NCBI RefSeq assembly: GCF_000226565.1
Contig: NC_016041.1
Coordinates: forward strand, 2,728,001 to 2,792,000
Reading direction: 5' to 3'
DNA length: 64,000 nt
From: Glaciecola nitratireducens FR1064
GTDB lineage: Bacteria; Pseudomonadota; Gammaproteobacteria; Enterobacterales; Alteromonadaceae
The position numbers and the translations under genes were made by a program. Positions 49,046 through 62,616 of the stretch are shown here, piece after piece; positions within the stretch are counted from its first letter, which is position 1; each line of letters starts with the position of its first letter. The notes under the pieces were generated by a model. That model searched no databases. It was not told where the DNA came from and worked only from the letters and a program-made list of their open reading frames with translations.

Positions 49046-49204
49046 GTTAAGAGCTTTTGAAAAATCTTGTAACAATTAAGCAACAATTTTCATTCAAAGC
49101 AAACTAAATTAAGCATCCGAAAGTAGTAATATGCTGAACTTGCTTCAACGAAGCACTCGCGCCTTCGACAGAAAGGCAACATATAACTCGCATTGGAAAG
49201 CATT

Positions 49205-51763
49205 ATGTTTGTAAACCTTACACGTAAATCTTTGCTTGCCGTTTTTTTCTCTTCACTGGTTTTTACCGCCTTTGCTGAAGATAAAAAAGATGACGCAAAA
49301 AAAGATGATGAAAAAGATAAAGAAACACTTACTCAAATACTAGAGAAAAAAGACGCTTTTGACGGTTTCGTCAACATCTATCGCGACAAAGAGGATGGCA
49401 GTGGTTTAGTCGTTTTTGATGAGTCACAGTTAAACAAGCCCTTCCTCTATTTTGTGTCCACTGTTGATGGCGCTGTTGCTGCTGGCACTTTTAGAGGCCA
49501 ATTTAGAGGCTCTCGCTTAATTGAGTTTCGTCGTAATTACGACAGAATCGAAATCATTTCAACTACGCCTAGATTTTACTTTGACCCAGAAAATGCGGTC
49601 AGCAAAGCATCTGATGCGAATATTAGTGAAGCTGTTTTGGTTTCAACAAAAATAGAGCACGAAGAAGACGGTAAAATCGCGATCTCTTTAAGCGATTTAT
49701 TCGCTAATGAAGACTTACACAAAGTATCGCCAACGCCGTCGGACAATCCAGAAGCGGAAAAACGCCGCTTTAAGCCGGGCAAATTGTCAAAAGACAAAAC
49801 CAGCATCAGCGAAATCAAAAACTTCCCGGAAAACACCCACGTTGTGGTTCGCTACGTTTACGAAAACAGCACGCCTAAAGTTGACGGTGGTGATGAAGTT
49901 TCTGACCCGCGTTACACAACGCTACACATTCAGCACGCCTTTATTAAAGCGCCTGAAAACAACTTCAAGCCACGCCGTGACGATGCCAGAATAGGCTACT
50001 TTTCACAGCAGTTTGACGACTTAACGTCTGACCAAACAGCAAACTACCGCGACGTGATCAATCGCTGGGATCTACAAAAGAAAAACCCAGGCGCTGAAGT
50101 TTCTGACCCAGTGAAACCAATCACTTGGTGGATTGAAAACACGACTCCGCTTGAATGGCGTGACACAATCAAAAACGCGACTCTGGCGTGGAACAGCGCT
50201 TTCGAAAAAGCCGGCATTAGCAACGCAATCGAAGTAAAGGTTCAGCCTGACGATGCAACCTGGAGCTCAGACGATGTTCGCTACAACGTATTACGTTGGA
50301 CCTCTTCACCTCGCCCTCCTTTTGGCGGTTATGGACCCAGCATATCGCACCCATTAACAGGGCAGATTATTGGTTCTGACATCATGTTGGAATACAGCTT
50401 TATGAAAGGCCGCTGGATTGCCGGTGAAATGTTCACCGACGGCTATGCTTCGTTAAGCAATAGCTTACAGGGTGACGAGCGCATGAACTGCTCTCTCGGC
50501 CATGAACTCAACCTCGGTATGATGTTCGGTCAGTATGCAGGAATGGCTGACGGCATGGGCAAAATTGAAGAAGAAAAGCTACTGCGCCAATCTATGGCAT
50601 ACCTCATTCTTCACGAAGTAGGCCACACCTTAGGCTTGAACCACAACATGATGGCATCGCAACTGCACGGTCATGAGGAAGCCCACGATGATTCAATTAC
50701 CAAAGGCATTCTTGCTGGCTCAGTGATGGACTATCCATCGGTTAACTATGCACCCGTTGGCAAAGAACAAGGTGACTTCTACACAGAAAAACCGGGTCCT
50801 TATGATGACTGGGCAATTTTATATGGTTACTCAGAAGCACTTGCCGATCCAGAGCAGGAAGAAAAGCGCCTAACAGCTATTTTAAGCCGCTCTGCCGAGC
50901 CAGAACTAGCCTTTGGTAACGATGCCGACGATATGCGCTCTGTTGGCCGTCACGTTGACCCTCGCATCAATATTTTTGATATGTCGGGTGAAGCCGTTGA
51001 TTATGCGCAAGACCGTTTTGAACTTATCAAGCATATGGCTGGCAAGCTAAAAGACAAGACGCTAGTAGACGGTCGTTCTCACAACGATCTCACTGTTGGC
51101 GTTAACGTTCTGTTTGGTGAATTTGCACGCCAAGCTTCTGTTGTTTCACGCTACATCGGTGGTGTTTATTTGAACCGTGCGTTTGTGGGCCAGCCTGGTT
51201 ACACGCAGCCGCTAACACCGGTGCCTGAAGACGAGCAACAAAAAGCGATGAATACGCTAATGAACTTTGTATTCGCACCTGATGCCATTGATGAAATGTC
51301 ACCTTTGTTTGCGTTCATCCAGCGTCAGCGTCGTGGTTTCAGTGGTTGGGGACGCGATGAGTCACCTCGCCTGCACGACATGCTGCTAGGTGCACAAAAG
51401 AACGTACTTGATCATGTTACGCATCCAAATGTGTTAATTCGCCTTACTGACACAACACTTTACGGCAATACTTTTACCGCTGAGAAAATGATGAGCCGAT
51501 TAACGGACGCTATGTTTAAGGCTGATATCAAGGGCGATGTAAATTCGTATCGTCGTAACTTGCAGGTTGAATACGTAGACCGTTTAATCAAAATGTCGGG
51601 CTTAGAGAAAGACAGCGGTTATGACAACTTCGCGCAAGCATCTGCTATGTATGAGCTTGGTCGAATTGCAGATATGGTTGAGAGGTCGCGCGGTGATCAG
51701 GCGACTAAAATTCATAAAGCGTTTTTGAAGGATAGGATTGAGCGGGTTTTTTATAAGGGGTAA
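49205..51763 (+). CDS. Exported zinc metalloprotease with DUF5117-like N-terminal domain
   Basis: An 852-residue protein with a signal peptide (MFVNLTRKSLLAVFFSSLVF..AFA) and a short Lys/Asp-rich linker (about 23-42). The DUF5117-type domain starts DAFDGFVNIYRDKEDGSGLVVFDESQLNKPFLYF. The zincin motif HEVGHTLGLNHNMMAS (HExxHxxGxxH) lies near residue 475, with VMDYPSVNYA acting as a Met-turn-like segment. The C-terminal part resembles DUF4953/5118 regions. It is a periplasmic or outer-membrane peptidase of unknown target. The ATG at 49205 is preceded by GGAAAG and is followed by the signal peptide, which rules out the longer TTG form. Confidence 0.9.
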   Translation: MFVNLTRKSLLAVFFSSLVFTAFAEDKKDDAKKDDEKDKETLTQILEKKDAFDGFVNIYRDKEDGSGLVVFDESQLNKPFLYFVSTVDGAVAAGTFRGQFRGSRLIEFRRNYDRIEIISTTPRFYFDPENAVSKASDANISEAVLVSTKIEHEEDGKIAISLSDLFANEDLHKVSPTPSDNPEAEKRRFKPGKLSKDKTSISEIKNFPENTHVVVRYVYENSTPKVDGGDEVSDPRYTTLHIQHAFIKAPENNFKPRRDDARIGYFSQQFDDLTSDQTANYRDVINRWDLQKKNPGAEVSDPVKPITWWIENTTPLEWRDTIKNATLAWNSAFEKAGISNAIEVKVQPDDATWSSDDVRYNVLRWTSSPRPPFGGYGPSISHPLTGQIIGSDIMLEYSFMKGRWIAGEMFTDGYASLSNSLQGDERMNCSLGHELNLGMMFGQYAGMADGMGKIEEEKLLRQSMAYLILHEVGHTLGLNHNMMASQLHGHEEAHDDSITKGILAGSVMDYPSVNYAPVGKEQGDFYTEKPGPYDDWAILYGYSEALADPEQEEKRLTAILSRSAEPELAFGNDADDMRSVGRHVDPRINIFDMSGEAVDYAQDRFELIKHMAGKLKDKTLVDGRSHNDLTVGVNVLFGEFARQASVVSRYIGGVYLNRAFVGQPGYTQPLTPVPEDEQQKAMNTLMNFVFAPDAIDEMSPLFAFIQRQRRGFSGWGRDESPRLHDMLLGAQKNVLDHVTHPNVLIRLTDTTLYGNTFTAEKMMSRLTDAMFKADIKGDVNSYRRNLQVEYVDRLIKMSGLEKDSGYDNFAQASAMYELGRIADMVERSRGDQATKIHKAFLKDRIERVFYKG

Positions 51764-51830: not shown

Positions 51831-52943
51831 CTACGGGATCATATTCTCACTTTCTACTTTATCTTGCGTGAAAAACTCTTTTAAACGCATCCAACTTTTT
51901 TTAATTAAATGCGGAATGAGTAGCCTCAATGGCATCCTCAATAGATGTCCTCGCCAATATAAAATGAACTGCGCTACAGGCGTCTTCCAGTCGCGACAAG
52001 AGCTATGATTAGGTTGGAATACACTGATAAAACAAAAATCTTGAACAGCCCCCATCAGTTTTGAATTGCATCGTAAACTTTCAGTGTCAAAATTATCTAG
52101 GTTAGTGTTAAAAAGAAGATATGAATAACGCAATGCCAGTCTTACATAATTGTATAGTCCAAGCTCATTGGATCTGGCTACTAACTTAGCAAGGAAATGC
52201 TTCTTTTCGTTCGCATTATATTCTTGCTGAAAATGCTGCAATAACAAATGTATGTCAGACATGTCTCGTAACCCGTGATGAAACTCACTTTCCGTAAACA
52301 AATGTACGGCTGTGTGTATCAGTAAGTCGATATCACTTAGGGTATTCACGCTGCCAACGTGCTCTACCGTGACAATTTCTGTATGAAATTTTGAGGCCTC
52401 TGGACTATCAGCATTTGTCGGAGGAAGTATATTGTGATGCACATCTAGTACCGTGCCCCTGTGTACATGAGTCAGTGGGGGTATTTCATGCATCCACGTT
52501 CGATAATATTCCTCATCATAATCCTCTATTTTGGTTTGTATCCAATTCGAAAACTTTAAGGTTTGTTCTATTTTTTGTAGATCGAATTTTTTAACCAGTA
52601 TATCGATATCGGAAAACGTTCTGCCATTAGAGCAAGGTAAGTTTTTAGTAATATATGCAGCACCTTTCAAAAAAATAGTACTGGTATTTAGGCCATGCAA
52701 GGCTTTAGCTAACTCGTAAAACTCTCTTTCTGCTTGCTTTCGTTGTTTTTGAGCAATTTTATATGCAGAGTCTAGGTGCCAAATGACTCGAGCTGATGGC
52801 GTCACACTTTCAACATCGCATAAATATTTTAAGCGGCCTACTAGCTGGCTAGCGTTAGCCTCTTTTAGAACTTGTTGCCATTGCGCATCGCTCAGGGTTT
52901 TAAGCTTATCTGGAGTTGAGAGCAGAGATATGAGTATCGACAT
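51831..52943 (-). CDS. Nucleotidyltransferase-family protein of the HPr-rel-A cassette
   Basis: A 370-residue protein of the Nucleotidyltransferase_5 type. The region LNTSTIFLKGAAYITKNLPCSNGRTFSDIDILVKKFDLQKIE carries the expected GGSxxR-like and DxD features (SDIDIL). It is followed by a helical C-terminal half with VDVHHNILPP-like and IDLLIHTAVHLFTESEFHHGLRDMSDIHLLL blocks. The family is known as one of the three invariant members of the HPr-rel-A system, but its reaction is unknown. Its ATG overlaps the kinase stop by one base (TAATG), so the two are coupled. The two His-rich segments could bind metal. Confidence 0.85.
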   Translation of the reverse strand: MSILISLLSTPDKLKTLSDAQWQQVLKEANASQLVGRLKYLCDVESVTPSARVIWHLDSAYKIAQKQRKQAEREFYELAKALHGLNTSTIFLKGAAYITKNLPCSNGRTFSDIDILVKKFDLQKIEQTLKFSNWIQTKIEDYDEEYYRTWMHEIPPLTHVHRGTVLDVHHNILPPTNADSPEASKFHTEIVTVEHVGSVNTLSDIDLLIHTAVHLFTESEFHHGLRDMSDIHLLLQHFQQEYNANEKKHFLAKLVARSNELGLYNYVRLALRYSYLLFNTNLDNFDTESLRCNSKLMGAVQDFCFISVFQPNHSSCRDWKTPVAQFILYWRGHLLRMPLRLLIPHLIKKSWMRLKEFFTQDKVESENMIP

Positions 52944-53806
52944 TATAAATCCACCAGCTCGGAGAAAACGTGATTGGCTTCGTCAAAATCGCTGTATTCA
53001 AATTCATAGCATTGTACTTTATTTAGCAGTCTTGATATGAGTTCGAAAGCTTCGACACCAAGAATATGGTAATTAAAACTCTGGTCTATGATAATTTGAA
53101 ATGCAGCCAATTTGTCAATCGGACGTAACGTAGCTTTGCTATTGGCAACATACTTTGGAAACACAAAGCTATGTAATTTCGCTGGCTCAGACATTCTATC
53201 TACACTGTCTTTTGGCGGTTTTAGTAATGAAACCGTTCCTTTATGAGTATCTTTGGCAATTGTGCTAAATACAGAACCCTCGACATAATTCTTAATAACA
53301 TCAATGGAGTTATTTTTTAAGTTAATTGGTCTAGTGCAAGGATAAACAAGCTCATTCAGCAAAGAAATAAGCCCTAATTCGTCCGAAAACAAACGCCAAC
53401 CATTGTATACGAGTGCCGCGGTCAGCGTGCTTTTGCCAGAGCCTGGTGCGGCAGGCATAACAATGACGTGACCATTTTTTTCAATTGTTCCGGCATGTAA
53501 TAATAAAAACTGATGTGCCTTCGTTGCAACACACCAATTCATGCCCCATTCGAGCATGGCGAATGCATTATCTTTAGGTAGAGGTTTGAAGGGCGCAAAT
53601 TCATCTAAGAAAAAGTCTACCTGAGGTTTAATGAAACGGCGAAGCTTTGAACGAGTGGTTATAGTGATATCAAAATCTACAAAGTCGTGTTTATTAACGC
53701 TAGGGTAGTCGCAATACATAGTCCGTACGTTATCTATAACCCGTTGATGATCGGTATTGATGGTAAAAGAAAACGGGCCAATTGGGAGGTTTAATTTAGT
53801 GAACAT
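52943..53806 (-). CDS. HprK-related kinase A (HPr-rel-A system)
   Basis: A 287-residue protein with an N-terminal beta-rich domain (LPIGPFSFTINTDHQRVIDNVRTMY) and a P-loop VMPAAPGSGKSTLTAALVYNGWRLFSDELGLI near 120-150. The P-loop and the following Asp-Glu match HPr kinase/phosphorylase Walker A and B. It lacks the full HPr-binding signature of HprK, so HPr is unlikely to be its target. A phosphorylation of a peptide or cofactor in the cassette is inferred. It is part of the operon Tat-protein/PqqD/kinase/nucleotidyltransferase. Confidence 0.88.
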   Translation of the reverse strand: MFTKLNLPIGPFSFTINTDHQRVIDNVRTMYCDYPSVNKHDFVDFDITITTRSKLRRFIKPQVDFFLDEFAPFKPLPKDNAFAMLEWGMNWCVATKAHQFLLLHAGTIEKNGHVIVMPAAPGSGKSTLTAALVYNGWRLFSDELGLISLLNELVYPCTRPINLKNNSIDVIKNYVEGSVFSTIAKDTHKGTVSLLKPPKDSVDRMSEPAKLHSFVFPKYVANSKATLRPIDKLAAFQIIIDQSFNYHILGVEAFELISRLLNKVQCYEFEYSDFDEANHVFSELVDL

Positions 53807-53868
53807 AGCGTTGAATACGTTACCTGAAGTGCAATAGCAGAAATGTTATATCTGAGACGCAATCGATG

Positions 53869-54135
53869 TTAAATGTCTTTTTCAACGATGATACCAGAGT
53901 TTAATGCTTCTGATATAAATTGTTCAAACTGTTCTTCAAGTTCATCTGTTTGTTCGTTGAATTGTTCACAAAAGACTGTGAAAAGATCCTGCTTTTTTTG
54001 CGGGGCAACCTTCAGTAGGCTTAGTACTAATTCATAAGGAAATTCTAAAAAGTGTGTATCTCCGCTAAAACTATTAAAGAGGGCTAGGCCCTCTTTAAAT
54101 GTGCTTATCGAAATGTCTTGCTCAATACTCAACAA
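53869..54135 (-). CDS. PqqD-like peptide chaperone (HPr-rel-A system)
   Basis: An 88-residue protein similar to PqqD/RRE domains: LSIEQDISISTFKEGLALFNSFSGDTHFLEFPYELVLSLLK, then a helical half with an acidic run (QTDELEEQFEQFISEALNSGIIV). In the family, FN..TGETH-like (FNSFSGDTHFL) and the EF..L..L..GI-like ending are typical. PqqD-like domains bind leader peptides of modified peptides. The start is TTG, 17 bases after the stop of the Tat-signal gene and without a clear ribosome-binding site, so it is probably translationally coupled. Confidence 0.85.
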   Translation of the reverse strand: MLSIEQDISISTFKEGLALFNSFSGDTHFLEFPYELVLSLLKVAPQKKQDLFTVFCEQFNEQTDELEEQFEQFISEALNSGIIVEKDI

Positions 54136-54152
54136 GGTTATTAAATACCAAG

Positions 54153-54797
54153 TTAAAATTTATCTCTATTAGCGTCTTCTAACCAACTTTGCGTTTGTGT
54201 CATTATTTCACTGATCGTTGTGTCAAAATAAAAGTTAGCGTGCAGACCATTGAACTGAGGGCTAAGCTGATTATTCCCTCCGAATAAAAAGTCTTTTTTA
54301 GCAGCCTCCCATAATTGCAGGTTCAATATTGCCACTGTGCGTTGCTTTAACAAACCACTCTCTCTATTTGTAACACCTGTGTTAGCCTTGCTATAACCAT
54401 TTTTCTTGTCGTTTATAGCGTCACCAACGGTCCCGCTCAAATTGCTATAATACATACCTAAGGAACCGGAATAAAGGTCTGAAAGCTTGGTATCTTTCGT
54501 AATTGCGGGAATTAGAGCCCAAAACCCATTATTCATCGCATGGCCATTACTCCACGCGCCTCCACTGTAACCAAGCAGTAAACAAGGACCTGTCATGCCT
54601 TGGCTAGATGTATTATTTGATAAATTTCCAGAGAGTGAACATTGGCCGGCCCAAACGGGACGACTTGATACAGTAGCAATCAATGCTGACCCTGCGACTG
54701 CTTTCTTGAAAAAACCGCGACGACCAGCAGTTTTCACACTATCATCACTTTTCACTTCATTGTCCTTTGACGCCGATGTGTCATTTTTGTGTACCAT
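54153..54797 (-). CDS. Tat-signal exported protein, candidate client of the HPr-rel-A cassette
   Basis: About 214 residues, not recognised as a known enzyme. A charged N-terminal leader (MVHKNDTSASKDNEVKSDDS) of about 25 residues precedes a twin-arginine motif, GRRGFFKKAVAGSALIATVS, with a probable cleavage after VWA. The mature part starts GQCSLSGNLSNNTSSQGMTG and has two nearby Cys, many Asn/Ser/Gly, and LWEAAKKDFLFGGNNQLSPQFNG. The ATG at 54797 was chosen because AGAGGA is 9 bases before it and abuts an upstream ATG. It is first in the operon, directly after a sigma-54 promoter and before the PqqD-like gene. The leader is longer than Tat signals need, so it could be what the PqqD-like protein binds; that is inference. 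Confidence 0.7.
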   Translation of the reverse strand: MVHKNDTSASKDNEVKSDDSVKTAGRRGFFKKAVAGSALIATVSSRPVWAGQCSLSGNLSNNTSSQGMTGPCLLLGYSGGAWSNGHAMNNGFWALIPAITKDTKLSDLYSGSLGMYYSNLSGTVGDAINDKKNGYSKANTGVTNRESGLLKQRTVAILNLQLWEAAKKDFLFGGNNQLSPQFNGLHANFYFDTTISEIMTQTQSWLEDANRDKF

Positions 54798-54881
54798 TTT
54801 CATCATTCCTCTAAAAAATATCCAGCGCGAGTGTCAGTATAATTTACAATCATGCTTTATAACAGCCTATATGCGAGATAT

Positions 54882-54899
54882 AAGCAATTTCCATGCCTA
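54882..54899 (-). promoter_or_regulatory. Sigma-54 (-24/-12) promoter of the Tat-protein/HPr-rel-A operon
   Basis: On the minus strand the sequence is TTAGGCATGGAAATTGCTTA: GG at 54897-54896, then 10 bases, then GC at 54885-54884. Compared with the consensus TGGCACG-N4-TTGC, it keeps GGCA, G at the seventh position and TTGC. Transcription would start about 65 bases before the ATG at 54797. An RpoN activator such as PrsR is expected, as known for PEP-CTERM systems; none is in the window. Confidence 0.75.
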
Positions 54900-56144: not shown

Positions 56145-56951
56145 CTATAATTTTATGTCAATCGTCTCTGCTAACTTCCTAAGCTCTCGCACTGGAATAG
56201 CATAACTAATACCACTTGGGTTGGTTAATGCAGCTTCTTTACCTTCTGACACAAATACTTTATTGATGACCGCAATAACTTCATTCGTACTGCTATTGAA
56301 AACAGGGCTGCCGCTATTTCCAGGATATGCAGTCGCGTCCAACTGATAGATAAAGAAAGGTGTTTTCAATCGCTTTAACATTTGAACCGTTAATTGGTCG
56401 GCATTTCTCGCAGGGTTTATGTCAGGTGCAATGGCTGCAACAATACCTTGGTGAGTTGCGGGGTAAAGTCCGAGTATTGCCCCTATTGGAAAACCTGTAA
56501 AAAATATTGACGTTCCCTCATCTACTAGCTCATCGCTAGCAATTTTTACTGCAGGCAGCGTGTCGTTAATTGAGAGTATGGCGATATCATGAACGGGATC
56601 AATTGCTAACACTTCCATTGTATGGATTTTAGGAGATGGACCGCTACCGCTTAATGCAACATAGTTCTGCACTATGCTCGGATCTAGCTCCTTTGCTACC
56701 ACATGGTAATTGGTCACTACATACTTGCCATTACCCACCACAAAACCCGTGCCTAACAGCTGAGGTGATCTAGACTGAATGGGAGCATACATAGCAATCC
56801 CAACTACAGAAGGTTTAATTTGTTTGATTGAGTCAACTAATGTACTTTGCTGCAATGCCGAAGCATTCAAAGAAACCATCAAGAAGACTAGTGTCGAAGT
56901 TACTATCACCCCTATGTGCGAGCGGGCTTTTATCCATTTATTATTTAGCAT
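56145..56951 (-). CDS. Trypsin-like (S1C) serine protease, exported
   Basis: About 268 residues with a signal or anchor helix (IGVIVTSTLVFLMVSLNASA). The catalytic triad is visible: His in VVTNYHVVAKE, Asp in IDPVHDIAILSI and Ser in YPGNSGSPVFN. The protein lacks a PDZ domain, unlike DegP/DegS. HtrA-like trypsin proteases without PDZ are seen in exosortase loci, but the substrate is unknown. I prefer the ATG at 56951 (MLNNKWIK); the longest form would begin at TTG 56966. It diverges from the ElyC-like gene, with an 8-base inverted repeat between them. Confidence 0.85.
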   Translation of the reverse strand: MLNNKWIKARSHIGVIVTSTLVFLMVSLNASALQQSTLVDSIKQIKPSVVGIAMYAPIQSRSPQLLGTGFVVGNGKYVVTNYHVVAKELDPSIVQNYVALSGSGPSPKIHTMEVLAIDPVHDIAILSINDTLPAVKIASDELVDEGTSIFFTGFPIGAILGLYPATHQGIVAAIAPDINPARNADQLTVQMLKRLKTPFFIYQLDATAYPGNSGSPVFNSSTNEVIAVINKVFVSEGKEAALTNPSGISYAIPVRELRKLAETIDIKL

Positions 56952-56975
56952 TTCCATTCTCTTCAATGACGTTGT

Positions 56976-57939: not shown

Positions 57940-58788
57940 ATGAGCATCCATTCAATACAACAACGACTTTTTCCTAACGCTGTGACAAAAAGACGGTCTA
58001 ACAAGCTTGTGGCGTTCATCAAGAAAAGTTGGGGCTCTTACCAAAAATTAAAGGAAGCACACGAAATAAGCTATCACTTTTCTCAGTTTCTAGCGCCTGT
58101 GATTGCCAACTCCCACCACAAAAAACAATGCGTTTACGGACTTAGACACAATGTTTATTGCGAAGAACTTAATTTTGAACCCATTAAAGATGACAAGCAG
58201 GAAATAGACGAGTTTGATGCGTTTTCTGAATACTGCCTTATTCAGCATGTGCATTCAGAGGCATTTGCAGGCACAGTCAGAGTAGTTAGCCCTATGAAAG
58301 AGGGAGAGCTACTGCCGATCGAAAAGTACTGCATGAATACCATTACAGACGATAACTTCTCGCCTACCAACTTCAAAAGAGCGGAAATATGCGAGATTTC
58401 ACGATTAGCAGTACCAGCCGCTTTTAGACGTAGAAAAGCAGATCATTTTATTGGTGCAGCCACTGGAAATATAAATAAATTTATTTATTCAGAAACTGAA
58501 TTGCGGTGCTTTCCCTTTATTGCTGTGGGGCTTTATTTCTCTGCAGCGGCCTTAGCGCTAAAACTAGATAAAAAACACGCGTTCGTTATGATGGAGCCGA
58601 GACTAGCAAAAAGCATGGGCTATGTGGGTATTAAATTTAAACAAATAGGCCCTGTTGTTGACTACCACGGCAAGCGTGCTCCTTACTATATCAATGCGGA
58701 TTTACTTTATTCTAATCTGAGCAAGGGCTTTAAGGTTATGTTAGAGAACATTCAAGAGCATATTGATGGGCAGAAGATAGAACTTTAA
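57940..58788 (+). CDS. PEP-CTERM/exosortase system-associated acyltransferase
   Basis: A 282-residue N-acyltransferase of the family tied to exosortase loci and related to acyl-homoserine-lactone synthases. CVYGLRHNVYCEELNFEPIKDDKQEIDEFDAFSEYCLIQH is the N-terminal motif, followed by FAGTVRVVSPMKEGELLPIEKYC and CEISRLAVPAAFRRRKAD (the Glu-x-Ser-Arg-Leu-x-Val signature). The product may be an acylated signal or lipid but is not known. It stands alone between the ElyC-like gene and the PEP-CTERM gene, with a terminator after it. Confidence 0.9.
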   Translation: MSIHSIQQRLFPNAVTKRRSNKLVAFIKKSWGSYQKLKEAHEISYHFSQFLAPVIANSHHKKQCVYGLRHNVYCEELNFEPIKDDKQEIDEFDAFSEYCLIQHVHSEAFAGTVRVVSPMKEGELLPIEKYCMNTITDDNFSPTNFKRAEICEISRLAVPAAFRRRKADHFIGAATGNINKFIYSETELRCFPFIAVGLYFSAAALALKLDKKHAFVMMEPRLAKSMGYVGIKFKQIGPVVDYHGKRAPYYINADLLYSNLSKGFKVMLENIQEHIDGQKIEL

Positions 58789-58867: not shown

Positions 58868-59767
58868 TTACTTGTTACGACGGCGAGCTGCGAAAGCTAA
58901 GCCGAATAGACCTAAGCCCATGAATGCTAATGTGCTTGGAGCTGAAATTGTTGCAGCTTGGACTGTTCCGTCACCAGTTAATGCATATAGTTTTTGGGTA
59001 GAAAACGTCGGATCATTTCCTTCACTAAAGCTTGAACTCAATCCTCGAGTATTTGCTTCATACATCAAATTGAAAAAAGGCAGGAAATTGTTCTGAGCGA
59101 TTCCACCGGTAACATCAACAAGGAATTGGCTACTACCCGCAGCTAATGCTTGGTCATAAAATAGTGCCCCGAAATCTGGAGTATAACTAAACTCTTCAAG
59201 CATTGTAGACAACCACAATGTACCGTTAGTCGCCTGCCCTACCTCTGTAGCGATTGTAGCCGCATTCGCAGTAGCCGCAGCAGAGACATCAAACTCACCA
59301 GCATTGTCATAATCTAAATATATATTTAACCAAGCTGCGTCAGCATTAATTTGTGGCGTTAAACGTGGACCAAAGACCGTGTCTTCCATTGTGATATCTT
59401 CAAGAAAAATACCACCGAAACTGAACGTCAACTCACAGCCTGAACAGCTTGGGTTACCACCGTTTCCTGTGTTCATCAAGAACTCGCCAATACCTACAAG
59501 CTCTGGCCTGTCACCGAGTAAACTGGTCAAATTCGTCATTGATGGAGTAACCGCATTTGCGTCTACCGCTGAGTTAACACCTGCACCAGTGTCTTGGCCA
59601 GTTGCTGTATTAGTGGTCGTCCACCACTGTGTATAATCTACTGTCGATTCAAAGTTAGGCTGACCTGCAAGTGCATCCCAATAAACGCCACCCGCAGCAG
59701 ATACAACACCTGCATTCGCCGACGAACAAGCTAATGCAAGAGTTGCTGCCAATGCTAGTTTTTTCAT
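58868..59767 (-). CDS. PEP-CTERM sorting-domain surface protein (SAP variant)
   Basis: A 299-residue exported protein with a signal peptide (MKKLALAATLALACSSANA) and a mature part rich in Thr, Asn and Gly. It contains CSGC in NPSCSGCELTFSFGGIFLED. The C-terminal tail SAPSTLAFMGLGLFGLAFAA then Arg-Arg-Arg-Asn-Lys is a PEP-CTERM-type signal in which the usual Val-Pro-Glu-Pro is Ile-Ser-Ala-Pro. An exosortase is expected to cleave it and attach the protein to the surface or exopolysaccharide matrix. The function of the mature part is unknown. The gene has its own sigma-54 promoter and lies downstream of prsT on the same strand, with AAAGGA 7 bases before the ATG. Confidence 0.92.
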   Translation of the reverse strand: MKKLALAATLALACSSANAGVVSAAGGVYWDALAGQPNFESTVDYTQWWTTTNTATGQDTGAGVNSAVDANAVTPSMTNLTSLLGDRPELVGIGEFLMNTGNGGNPSCSGCELTFSFGGIFLEDITMEDTVFGPRLTPQINADAAWLNIYLDYDNAGEFDVSAAATANAATIATEVGQATNGTLWLSTMLEEFSYTPDFGALFYDQALAAGSSQFLVDVTGGIAQNNFLPFFNLMYEANTRGLSSSFSEGNDPTFSTQKLYALTGDGTVQAATISAPSTLAFMGLGLFGLAFAARRRNK

Positions 59768-59895: not shown

Positions 59896-62616
59896 TTACA
59901 AGTACTTTTTCAATCTTAGATTAATTTCAACCTTCAATTTAGGATCTACTGTCCTAATGTTTTTTAGTACTCTTACTGCGTTTTCTTTTTGCCCAACACC
60001 ATATAGTGCATCCGCATAGTTAAAGAAAATATTAATATCCGTCGGGTTATTTTTAAGCGCTAACGCTAAAAGACTTTGCGCAGTTTTGTAGTTCTCTTCA
60101 CGCAAATAGGTTTGTGCTAACGTATCTAAAAAATTGGAGTTAGTTGGAAATAAATCAACAGCCTGTTGCGCAAAATTTCTTGCCTGTGAAATCTCTCCCT
60201 TCTGCAAACTTAGCCAAGCAATATTATTCATCGCTACGGCATTTTTAGGATATTTCTGTAAGAGCATCATATATTCTTCAATTGCAGCGTCAGGATCTGT
60301 CCACATTAATACGTCAGCTTTAAGCATTTTAGCTAGTGCATCATCAGGAAAGCTAATCAAATGACTATTAATTGCTTCAATCGCTTTGTCACTTTGTAAC
60401 ATACCCAAATATGCATTATTTACCTGAGATAAATGAAAAAAGTTGGGTTCATTTTCATATGCAGCAATTAAAAGAGGTAAAGCTTTGTCATACTTTTTTG
60501 TCAGCAGCAAATAACGACCGTACTGATTTTTGTAAAACAGGCTTTTTTGCACCTCAGGAGATATACTTGTCAATACTCTTTTAGCTATCGCTTCATCTCC
60601 CAAGTCAATTGCATATTGTGCGGCGAACAGGCTAAACAATTCGTTATCTTTAAAACGTAAAAGTCCTTCTTTTACCAAATTATAAATTCCAGGAACAAGC
60701 CTTTTTGCTTGAGGTTGAGACAATAGCTTAATATATGCAAAGGCATCATTTGGCTGAATCCTTACCCAAGATTCAAGCAAATTTACGGCATTTTTATGCT
60801 GTTCATTGTAGGTGTATGCATCTGCTAAAAACACCCAAATTGCTCTTGGTGTGTTTGCTGTAAATTGGTGATTTTTTAGAAGCTCAATAACCTTCAAAGA
60901 TAGTTTTGCATCGGTTAGAGCCTGCGCATACCAAAACTTGTATGCCGCTTGATTATCAAATTCGTATGCTTTCTGGAAAAACGGTAAAGAACGCTCTGGC
61001 TCGCCAATTTTAATATTAATAGTTCTCATTGTTTTCAATAGTGAAACATTGAGAATATTGTCGCTAAGCGATTCACTCAGTGTTTTGTATGAAGCATCAT
61101 AATCATTGTTTTCAAATTGCTGTATTGCAATAAAATTTGAGCTTATAGCTTCATTCTTTGACAGTGTTTGAATCTTGGCAGCTATCGCTAAGGCTTCATC
61201 ATTCTCTTCAAGGTTCGCGTGCGATAGCATAAGAGCGTTTAACGCCATTAAAGAGTTTGGCTCAGTCTGCAAATACTTAAGGCTCAATGTTTTGGCTTGC
61301 TCAAAATCTTGACTATTAAAATAATAAGAAACCAACGTGTAAAGGCTATCTGCACTTGGGTTTACTTTAAGTTCATTTTCTACCACTTCAATTGCAGTCA
61401 CGTTACCCATCTTCACCAACGCCCTAGCTATACTAGTATTGCTACTCATACCTTTTTCAATGATCTGTTGTTCGAGTTTTTCAGCCATATCAAACTCGCG
61501 ATTTGCAAGTAAGTTCTCAATTGTCGAAGCCGTGATATTGGGAAATGACTCAACGCCACTCTCGCGTTGCATTAAGGTTTCGGCCACATCGGCTTCATAC
61601 CCTAATTTTAATTTCGTATACAAATAGGCAGCGTTAAACGATGCGTCTCGTTGAATATCGCTCCCCATTGTCTGAAAATGTTGATAAGCAGCTTCGTAAT
61701 TTTGAAGAGACATTGACGATAATGCAGCGATACCTCTGACGGTTGAATCTGAAATTCCATAAGTAATCGCTAGCTCAGAGTTTCTTTTCGCGTTGACATA
61801 ATCCTCGTCCGCATAGTCAATTAAACTAAGTAATTTGGTTACAACGGGTTGTTTTTCGTATTTTTTTGATAGTTTTGCCAGAATAACCTTAGCTTCATCA
61901 TATTTTTGAAATTGTATTAATGCTTCGCTTTTATATAACTTCACTAAGTCAAAATTGATACTCGATTTTAGAATAAGGTTATATTCATCTAGGGCTGCTT
62001 CATTTTCGCCACTTTGATAGTGTGCTAACCCATTAATAACGCTTACAAACGGAAAGTACGCTTCTTTATTTTTGATTTGAGAAAACTGTTCCGTTGCGAC
62101 AGTAAAGTTCTCTAGTGAATAAGCAATCAAACCGTCTAATAATAATTTACTATCCTGCGTTATCAACTGAGGAATAACTGGGTCAACAACATCATTGAAC
62201 CGGTTGGTGGAAGAAAACGTTATGAAAGCTTTTAATACTTTTGATAAATCAGTAGCTTTATCATCCAATTCAATATCGATGATTCTAAATCCATCTTGTT
62301 GAAAATAAATAGCTAACAATAATTGCTCTTGCTCTTTCGGAGTATGTTTTCGCAAGTCCGTAACCCTAATCAACTCCTTTTCGGACTGTATAAAATCACC
62401 ATTTTTAAAATAAGCATCTGCGAGTAAACTCCTCGCATCATCATTGTTCTTATTTTTAACGACAACATCTTTCAGCACGATAATGGCTTCAGCGTAATTC
62501 GACTCTGCAATAAGCTTTTGCGACTGTTCAACTTGCTCTTCCTCTTTGGGCTCAGAACAACCAATTAAGGACACGGTGAATAAAGAAATTAATATAAATG
62601 AGGATAGTTTGCGCAT
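59896..62616 (-). CDS. prsT: PrsT, PEP-CTERM-system TPR-repeat lipoprotein
   Basis: A 906-residue lipoprotein (lipobox SLIGCSEP, Cys about 20) made almost entirely of TPR-like helical repeats. Examples are NYAEAIIVLKDVVVKNKNNDDARSLLADAYFKNGDF near the N terminus and AVAMNNIAWLSLQKGEISQARNFAQQAVDLFPTNSNFLDTLAQTYLREENYKTAQSLLALAL near the C terminus. Length and repeat layout match PrsT, which accompanies exosortase/exopolysaccharide loci and probably acts in polymer export or assembly at the outer membrane. GGAAGAAGG precedes the ATG. No sigma-54 site is seen before it. Confidence 0.9.
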   Translation of the reverse strand: MRKLSSFILISLFTVSLIGCSEPKEEEQVEQSQKLIAESNYAEAIIVLKDVVVKNKNNDDARSLLADAYFKNGDFIQSEKELIRVTDLRKHTPKEQEQLLLAIYFQQDGFRIIDIELDDKATDLSKVLKAFITFSSTNRFNDVVDPVIPQLITQDSKLLLDGLIAYSLENFTVATEQFSQIKNKEAYFPFVSVINGLAHYQSGENEAALDEYNLILKSSINFDLVKLYKSEALIQFQKYDEAKVILAKLSKKYEKQPVVTKLLSLIDYADEDYVNAKRNSELAITYGISDSTVRGIAALSSMSLQNYEAAYQHFQTMGSDIQRDASFNAAYLYTKLKLGYEADVAETLMQRESGVESFPNITASTIENLLANREFDMAEKLEQQIIEKGMSSNTSIARALVKMGNVTAIEVVENELKVNPSADSLYTLVSYYFNSQDFEQAKTLSLKYLQTEPNSLMALNALMLSHANLEENDEALAIAAKIQTLSKNEAISSNFIAIQQFENNDYDASYKTLSESLSDNILNVSLLKTMRTINIKIGEPERSLPFFQKAYEFDNQAAYKFWYAQALTDAKLSLKVIELLKNHQFTANTPRAIWVFLADAYTYNEQHKNAVNLLESWVRIQPNDAFAYIKLLSQPQAKRLVPGIYNLVKEGLLRFKDNELFSLFAAQYAIDLGDEAIAKRVLTSISPEVQKSLFYKNQYGRYLLLTKKYDKALPLLIAAYENEPNFFHLSQVNNAYLGMLQSDKAIEAINSHLISFPDDALAKMLKADVLMWTDPDAAIEEYMMLLQKYPKNAVAMNNIAWLSLQKGEISQARNFAQQAVDLFPTNSNFLDTLAQTYLREENYKTAQSLLALALKNNPTDINIFFNYADALYGVGQKENAVRVLKNIRTVDPKLKVEINLRLKKYL

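Follow-up and report, generated by a model that had tools for sequence, protein, structure and literature searches.

The window analyzed here is a stretch of 64,000 nucleotides from Glaciecola nitratireducens FR1064 (NC_016041.1, positions 2,728,001 to 2,792,000 of the forward strand); coordinates below refer to this window. Four tightly packed minus-strand genes at 51831-54806 form an HPr-rel-A type cassette. In the direction of reading they encode a Tat-signal protein, a PqqD-like protein, an HprK-related kinase A and an NTP_transf_5 nucleotidyltransferase (NTase). The initial annotation had described a tight cluster of these four genes, and the spacing confirmed it: 17 nt lie between the client and PqqD-like genes and 62 nt between the PqqD-like and kinase genes, and the kinase and NTase genes overlap by 1 nt. 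The features are as follows:

51831..52943, minus strand: NTP_transf_5 nucleotidyltransferase, 370 aa (PF14907)
52943..53806, minus strand: HprK-related kinase A, 287 aa (TIGR04352)
53869..54135, minus strand: PqqD-like protein (PqqD_rel_X), presumed client-binding adaptor, 88 aa, TTG start (TIGR04353)
54153-54806, minus strand: Tat-like ORF, 217 aa
54153..54797, minus strand: putative Tat-signal client protein (type A), likely extent, starting at residue 4 of the 217-aa ORF
54648..54722, minus strand: twin-arginine signal region assigned from the sequence, residues 29-53, with cleavage predicted after A53 as judged by eye
54606..54632, minus strand: serine triad S59-x3-S63-x3-S67, candidate modification sites, conserved in an alignment of 66 clients

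Translation of the client more likely begins at an in-frame Met at position 54797, residue 4 of the ORF, than at 54806, because the chosen starts of its relatives align there. Counted from this Met, the leader ahead of the RR pair agrees with the 25 residues given in the initial annotation. The end coordinate given there, 54899, is beyond the Tat-like ORF, which stops at 54806.

Enzymes and neighbors of the cassette

The PqqD-like protein scored 62.9 bits against TIGR04353, exceeding the curated cut-off of 35; NCBIfam labels PqqD_rel_X a PqqD family peptide chaperone. Of the 147 family genomes, only that of the window gave a TIGR04353 score above cut-off; elsewhere the assignment of this gene rests on its position and on an iterative model that we built (82/110 loci). 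The kinase, the single HPr-rel-A type kinase of the window genome (one contig, 4.13 Mb), exceeded the TIGR04352 cut-off of 200 with 361.5 bits. Its predicted structure (mean pLDDT 94.1) matches PEPCK and HPrK folds, and H104, the Walker A motif G122-x-G124-K125-S126-T127 and D142 are invariant among 40 sequences; the window kinase has the fold, Walker A motif and conserved His, Lys and Asp that define the HPrK/PEPCK kinase superfamily. The NTase matched PF14907 with an E value of 1.1e-42, and its catalytic-looking residues K93-G94, R108, D112 and D114 are identical in 75/75 sequences, the window's among them. As judged from these alignments, the kinase and transferase motifs are intact.

Further genes were noted around the cassette. 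A protease-like protein (56145-56966, minus strand), trypsin-like by eye, has relatives in the fetched flanks of 23/80 kinase loci, the highest count among eight neighbors tested, and a PEP-CTERM/exosortase acyltransferase (57940-58788, plus strand; TIGR03694, 227.9 bits) has relatives in 13/80. A PrsT-like TPR protein (59896-62616, minus strand) scored 280.4 bits, below the cut-off of 312.2, and the product of 58868-59767 (minus strand) carries a C-terminal PEP-CTERM-like tail that scored 20.5 against the Pfam cut-off of 20.7. A DUF5117/DUF4953 met-zincin protein (49193-51763, plus strand) is convergent with the cassette.

Co-inheritance and conserved residues of the Tat-signal protein

We examined 147 genomes from the window's family, scoring the kinase against its curated cut-off and the client by A1, an alignment model of 66 type A clients with the window's included (mean column identity 13%). 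The kinase was over cut-off in 65 genomes and A1 matched a client in 65; these positives are partly by construction, since A1 was built from wider-scan loci and holds 9 clients of the first 30 family loci, but the negatives are not. The two sets consist of the same genomes, and neither gene was found in the remaining 82 (Fisher value 2e-43, kinship ignored). All 65 pairs share a contig and strand, with the matches 171-725 bp apart (median 452), and at least seven genera (g8, g17, g24, g36, g42, g50, g52) have both genes in some species and neither in others. Weaker kinase-like matches below cut-off were found in 13 of the 82 kinase-negative genomes, and signal, triad and domain occurred together in 0/82. 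An exosortase match was obtained in 65/65 kinase genomes vs 50/82 of the others (TIGR02602 in the window genome, E 1.3e-60). Conservation of a Tat protein next to the cassette, which the initial annotation had set as a test of its own proposal, was seen in 65/65 kinase-bearing family genomes, in favor of the proposal. We concluded that the proposed role of the Tat protein, the first gene product, as client of the cassette is strongly supported by co-inheritance (65/147, adjacent each time) and by the Tat-like partners in other Proteobacteria described below.

In a wider scan covering named genomes, a client lay within the fetched flanks of 73/80 kinase loci, upstream of the kinase in 71 and past the NTase instead in L041 and L045; these positives are again partly by construction, because ORFs selected for their position seeded the client model used for the locus scan. 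Of the family loci, 30/30 had a client. The window protein alone as query, with no model, found relatives in 30/80 loci, and in 50/110 loci at E <1e-3. Three loci carry two clients each (L042, L096, L106), and two that were scored as client-bearing hold fragments only (L090, L108). No adjoining client was detected within the fetched flanks of 7/80 loci (L043, L049, L082, L086, L102, L104, L109). Among these, the sequence ends near the kinase or NTase in L043, L049 and L104, L086 has a partial kinase match next to masked bases, and L102 and L109, in which the fetched flanks yielded no client, are from Planctomycetia. In L082 (Vibrio hannami) the kinase is kept, the NTase matches are split over two ORFs and the client went undetected in the fetched flanks, possibly reflecting joint decay.

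The window Tat protein matched no NCBIfam or Pfam model, curated Tat models included; its RR pair, hydrophobic stretch and AxA-like site were all recognized by eye, and TIGR01409 matches 4/66 type A clients. Across the type A clients no NCBIfam or Pfam family was found at E ≤0.01 except generic Tat models (at most 4/66) and one DUF6764 match. Conservation of at least 90% is seen in the A1 columns of M4 (the chosen start), R29, R30, S59, S63, S67 and N162; R30 is invariant and R29 nearly so in the 66 clients, and the triad serines are present in 64/66 (S59), 65/66 (S63) and 64/66 (S67). The remaining 32 S/T/Y residues of the mature window protein have a conservation of 0.15 on average and 0.58 at most. 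The exact S-x3-S-x3-S spacing at residues 20-110 was found in 57/66 clients vs a fraction of 0.049 in shuffled sequence, and clients lacking it have different gaps or one residue replaced. The first triad serine lies a median of 7 residues past the cleavage site as called by a simple pattern, and 55% of type A clients have a Cys three residues ahead of it. In the structure model of the client, the triad falls in a low-confidence stretch N-terminal to a helical folded domain. The window client ends in Lys-Phe.

The stretch preceding RR is polar and acidic in composition (D/E 0.16, K/R 0.09), has a median length of 22-24 and is not conserved. Conservation in the alignments points to the region from RR to the cleavage site and to the serines of the mature part, rather than to the charged leader. 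The initial annotation had favored this leader as the PqqD recognition element, an idea that found no support: its length and sequence vary, and [YW]xxP occurs in 0/66. As a conserved recognition element the charged leader was rejected, being polar, variable and motif-free in 74 proteins from the wider-scan loci and in the alignments.

Other client types across the phylum

The phylum sample comprised 398 genomes; a negative in it carries less weight than one in the family, because at most 6 to 8 first-look candidates per genome were scored. On this basis the kinase was over cut-off in 60/398 genomes, for which 53 kinase loci were fetched in addition to seven family loci. Most phylum kinase loci have a Tat-like ORF upstream whose mature sequence is unrelated to type A. 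The tally for the 60 kinase genomes is 11 with type A, 30 with type B adjacent to the kinase (L139 on the opposite strand), 9 with type C adjacent and 3 with other or truncated Tat-like proteins. In six more the client is found elsewhere in the genome (L119, L120, L122, L127, L150, L164), that of G410 being the weakest, and one genome (L156; G332, 57% complete) gave a weak match only and has no clear client.

Invariant residues of type B (model A2, 28 aligned) include C157, W158 and S160, located in a C-terminal SCWxS[FLI], and type C sequences (model A3, 9 aligned) end in FTC[FY]ASLQ followed by a few residues. The pattern [ST]C[WFYLI]xS[FLI] is present in the last 40 residues of 37/37 type B and C sequences, which were chosen after the C-terminal motif had been noticed, and in 0/66 type A clients and at most 0.002 of shuffles. 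Clients located elsewhere in the genome also carry the motif (G213, G225, G166, G269, G357, G410); among the Tat-like proteins adjacent to the kinase, those of L144 (truncated), L148 and L128 (variant C-I-V-S-I) lack the exact motif. Scans of six type B or C clients against NCBIfam and Pfam gave no convincing match. At L167:1667-2567, on a contig different from that of the kinase, G269 has a type B client and, following it, an ORF that looks PqqD-like by eye.

When the type A and type B profiles were compared, the alignment was confined to the signal region (probability 96), and types B and C aligned over the signal and the beginning of the mature part (probability 64). A signal model from 29 type B signals (A4) matched type A clients in 4/65 client-bearing genomes at E ≤0.1 (G074, G045, G080, G129) and had no match in the window's genome; unrelated ORFs score alike. 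The signal region was rejected as a unique tag on this result; it is weakly distinctive, because A4 finds few type A clients and scores unrelated ORFs similarly. We therefore regard the type A and type B signal regions, as compared by profile, as similar without being a diagnostic tag.

With the best 6 to 8 candidates scored per genome, the type B model matched 39/398 genomes, 39/39 of which have the kinase; the matches in G045, G246, G410 and G443 cover mostly the signal region. With the same scoring, A1 matched 4/338 phylum genomes without a kinase over cut-off. In G314, G423 and G476 the match covers the mature domain only, and in G488 it is weak and spans 39 residues at signal positions within a 648-codon frame. 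The type A mature domain (CTxGYWK...LLNA) also ends other exported-looking proteins (L129:1987-2853 and L130:342-2594), where the kinase is below cut-off or absent. These proteins have signal-like N-termini and lack both the triad and a convincing Pfam or NCBIfam name.

Proposed maturation route and related systems

From sequence and from analogy with characterized pathways, the four genes probably constitute a maturation system in which an adaptor-guided kinase and the NTase would modify serines of the exported client before Tat export. The PqqD-like adaptor would bind the N-terminal signal region of the client and deliver it to the HprK-type kinase, which would phosphorylate serines of the mature part in the cytoplasm (S59, S63 and S67 in the window client; for types B and C, a Ser close to the C-terminal end). 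The NTase may then add a second group, a sugar-phosphate or nucleotide, onto the phosphate, and the modified, folded client would exit via Tat, with the signal removed afterwards. The sequences themselves establish the genes, their co-inheritance, the intact kinase and transferase motifs and the serine conservation; the binding, phosphorylation, second modification, order of steps and export route are what we infer. Phosphate-based chemistry on the client serines is probable because the pairing recurs across many genomes with the serines kept, and the order kinase, NTase, Tat is proposed because the parts are the same as in the LPP and lasso systems and the serine positions correspond. The transferase step is the weakest part of the proposal, because lppN deletion made no detectable change to the product in the available text of the LPP study (PMC13381572), and a nucleotidylation route for PsmN is left standing in that of a review (PMC9266682).

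Other explanations were weighed against this maturation route. One possibility is that the kinase and NTase synthesize or activate some small molecule or a precursor of a glycan, with the Tat protein as its periplasmic acceptor or user and not an enzyme substrate. The exosortase match in 65/65 kinase genomes fits such a role, as does the position of the window cassette beside exosortase-linked genes (the TIGR03694 acyltransferase and the PrsT-like protein). We nevertheless consider it unlikely, as it leaves unexplained the PqqD-like adaptor, a peptide chaperone according to NCBIfam, the conservation of the triad serines among divergent clients, and the unrelated Tat-like clients, each with an invariant Ser. 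Somewhat less likely still is that serines and signal are kept for structure or sorting, e.g., surface anchoring or assembly, while the cassette modifies something else and all the genes serve a common surface structure. The triad directly past the signal, in a stretch that is flexible in the model, could host a sorting or assembly motif, and the Cys preceding the first Ser in 55% of clients is consistent with this. Against it, the client is retained in genomes where it lies away from the kinase (G213, G225, G166, G269, G357), the protein with signal, triad and domain occurs in none of the 82 kinase-lacking family genomes, and the four matches among 338 kinase-lacking phylum genomes (best 6 to 8 candidates scored) are limited to the domain (G314, G423, G476) or to a 39-residue stretch (G488).

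Tat substrates that mature in the cytoplasm commonly have dedicated signal-binding chaperones. The PqqD-like protein might be a proofreading chaperone of this kind that holds the client until it folds, with the kinase merely regulating by phosphorylating the chaperone; the signal is indeed what differing clients have in common in the comparison of types A and B. This would leave the NTase without a role and the conserved client serines without a reason, and we give it very little weight.

The analysis thus offers a candidate substrate family for a named modification cassette, defined by co-inheritance, and specific residues as candidate sites. If the maturation route is true, RRE-kinase-transferase chemistry, so far found on short precursors, would extend to full-size exported proteins, and exosortase bacteria would gain a previously unrecognized class of modified proteins. 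It is conceivable, though we hold this tentatively and think it rather doubtful, that HPr-rel-A represents, throughout Proteobacteria, a general RiPP-like pathway working at protein scale. The Tat signal would then serve as leader and whole proteins as interchangeable cores, whose conserved serines would receive a phospho-sugar or nucleotide from the RRE, kinase and transferase before export, yielding phosphoglycosylated surface proteins of exosortase bacteria that may prime or tether matrix polysaccharide.

The cassette agrees with the HPr-rel-A system (TIGR04352, TIGR04353) in that both cut-offs are exceeded, an NTP_transf_5 gene adjoins and the genome has an exosortase. The names of the HPr-rel-A models refer to a PqqD family peptide chaperone and a kinase. 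The clients fall outside nearly all NCBIfam and Pfam families; our literature search, made mostly outside subscription journals, found no client for the cassette and no paper naming HPr-rel-A. According to the available text of the LPP study, the system combines an HprK-like kinase with an RRE and an NTP transferase, LppK places several phosphates on S3, directly after the leader, and LPP and paeninodins are confined to Bacillota (PMC13381572). As far as that text goes, the lpp clusters and the cassette share a discrete RRE/PqqD-like adaptor, an HprK-like kinase, an NTP transferase and a polysaccharide-locus neighborhood, and the LPP precursors (35-200 aa, with a conserved N-terminal region, a variable C-terminus and a Ser directly after the leader) can be likened to the client. 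In contrast to LPP, the cassette is hosted by Pseudomonadota, its clients are roughly 130-300 aa long with a folded domain predicted in the window's client, and a signal-peptidase-like (SpI-like) protease and an MsbA-like transporter are missing among its four genes. Its leader resembles a Tat signal. The [YW]xxP motif of LPP leaders was found in 0/66 type A, 1/28 type B and 0/9 type C clients, and with a following hydrophobic residue in 0 throughout.

In the available accounts of paeninodin-type phosphorylated lasso peptides (PadeK, ThcoK, SyanK) and pseudomycoidin (PsmK, PsmN), an HprK-like kinase likewise modifies a conserved precursor Ser with an RRE protein present, and an NTase homolog is needed for hexoses on the phosphate (PMC8498205, PMC9266682). 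PadeK and PsmK phosphorylate the C-terminal Ser of the precursor. Attachment of one or two hexoses to the phosphorylated Ser requires PsmN, with nucleotidylation followed by host glycosylation retained as an alternative to direct hexose addition (PMC9266682, as far as its available text goes). Unlike the lasso pathways, the cassette has no cyclase or B2 protease among its four genes; the C-terminal Ser motif is found in 0/66 type A clients, and the Ser of types B and C is near, not at, the C-terminus. The cassette is not classed as a member of the LPP or lasso pathways, yet in our reading it works like them: the type A triad matches LppA S3 in position, and the motif of types B and C has a rough counterpart in the C-terminal Ser of the lasso precursors.
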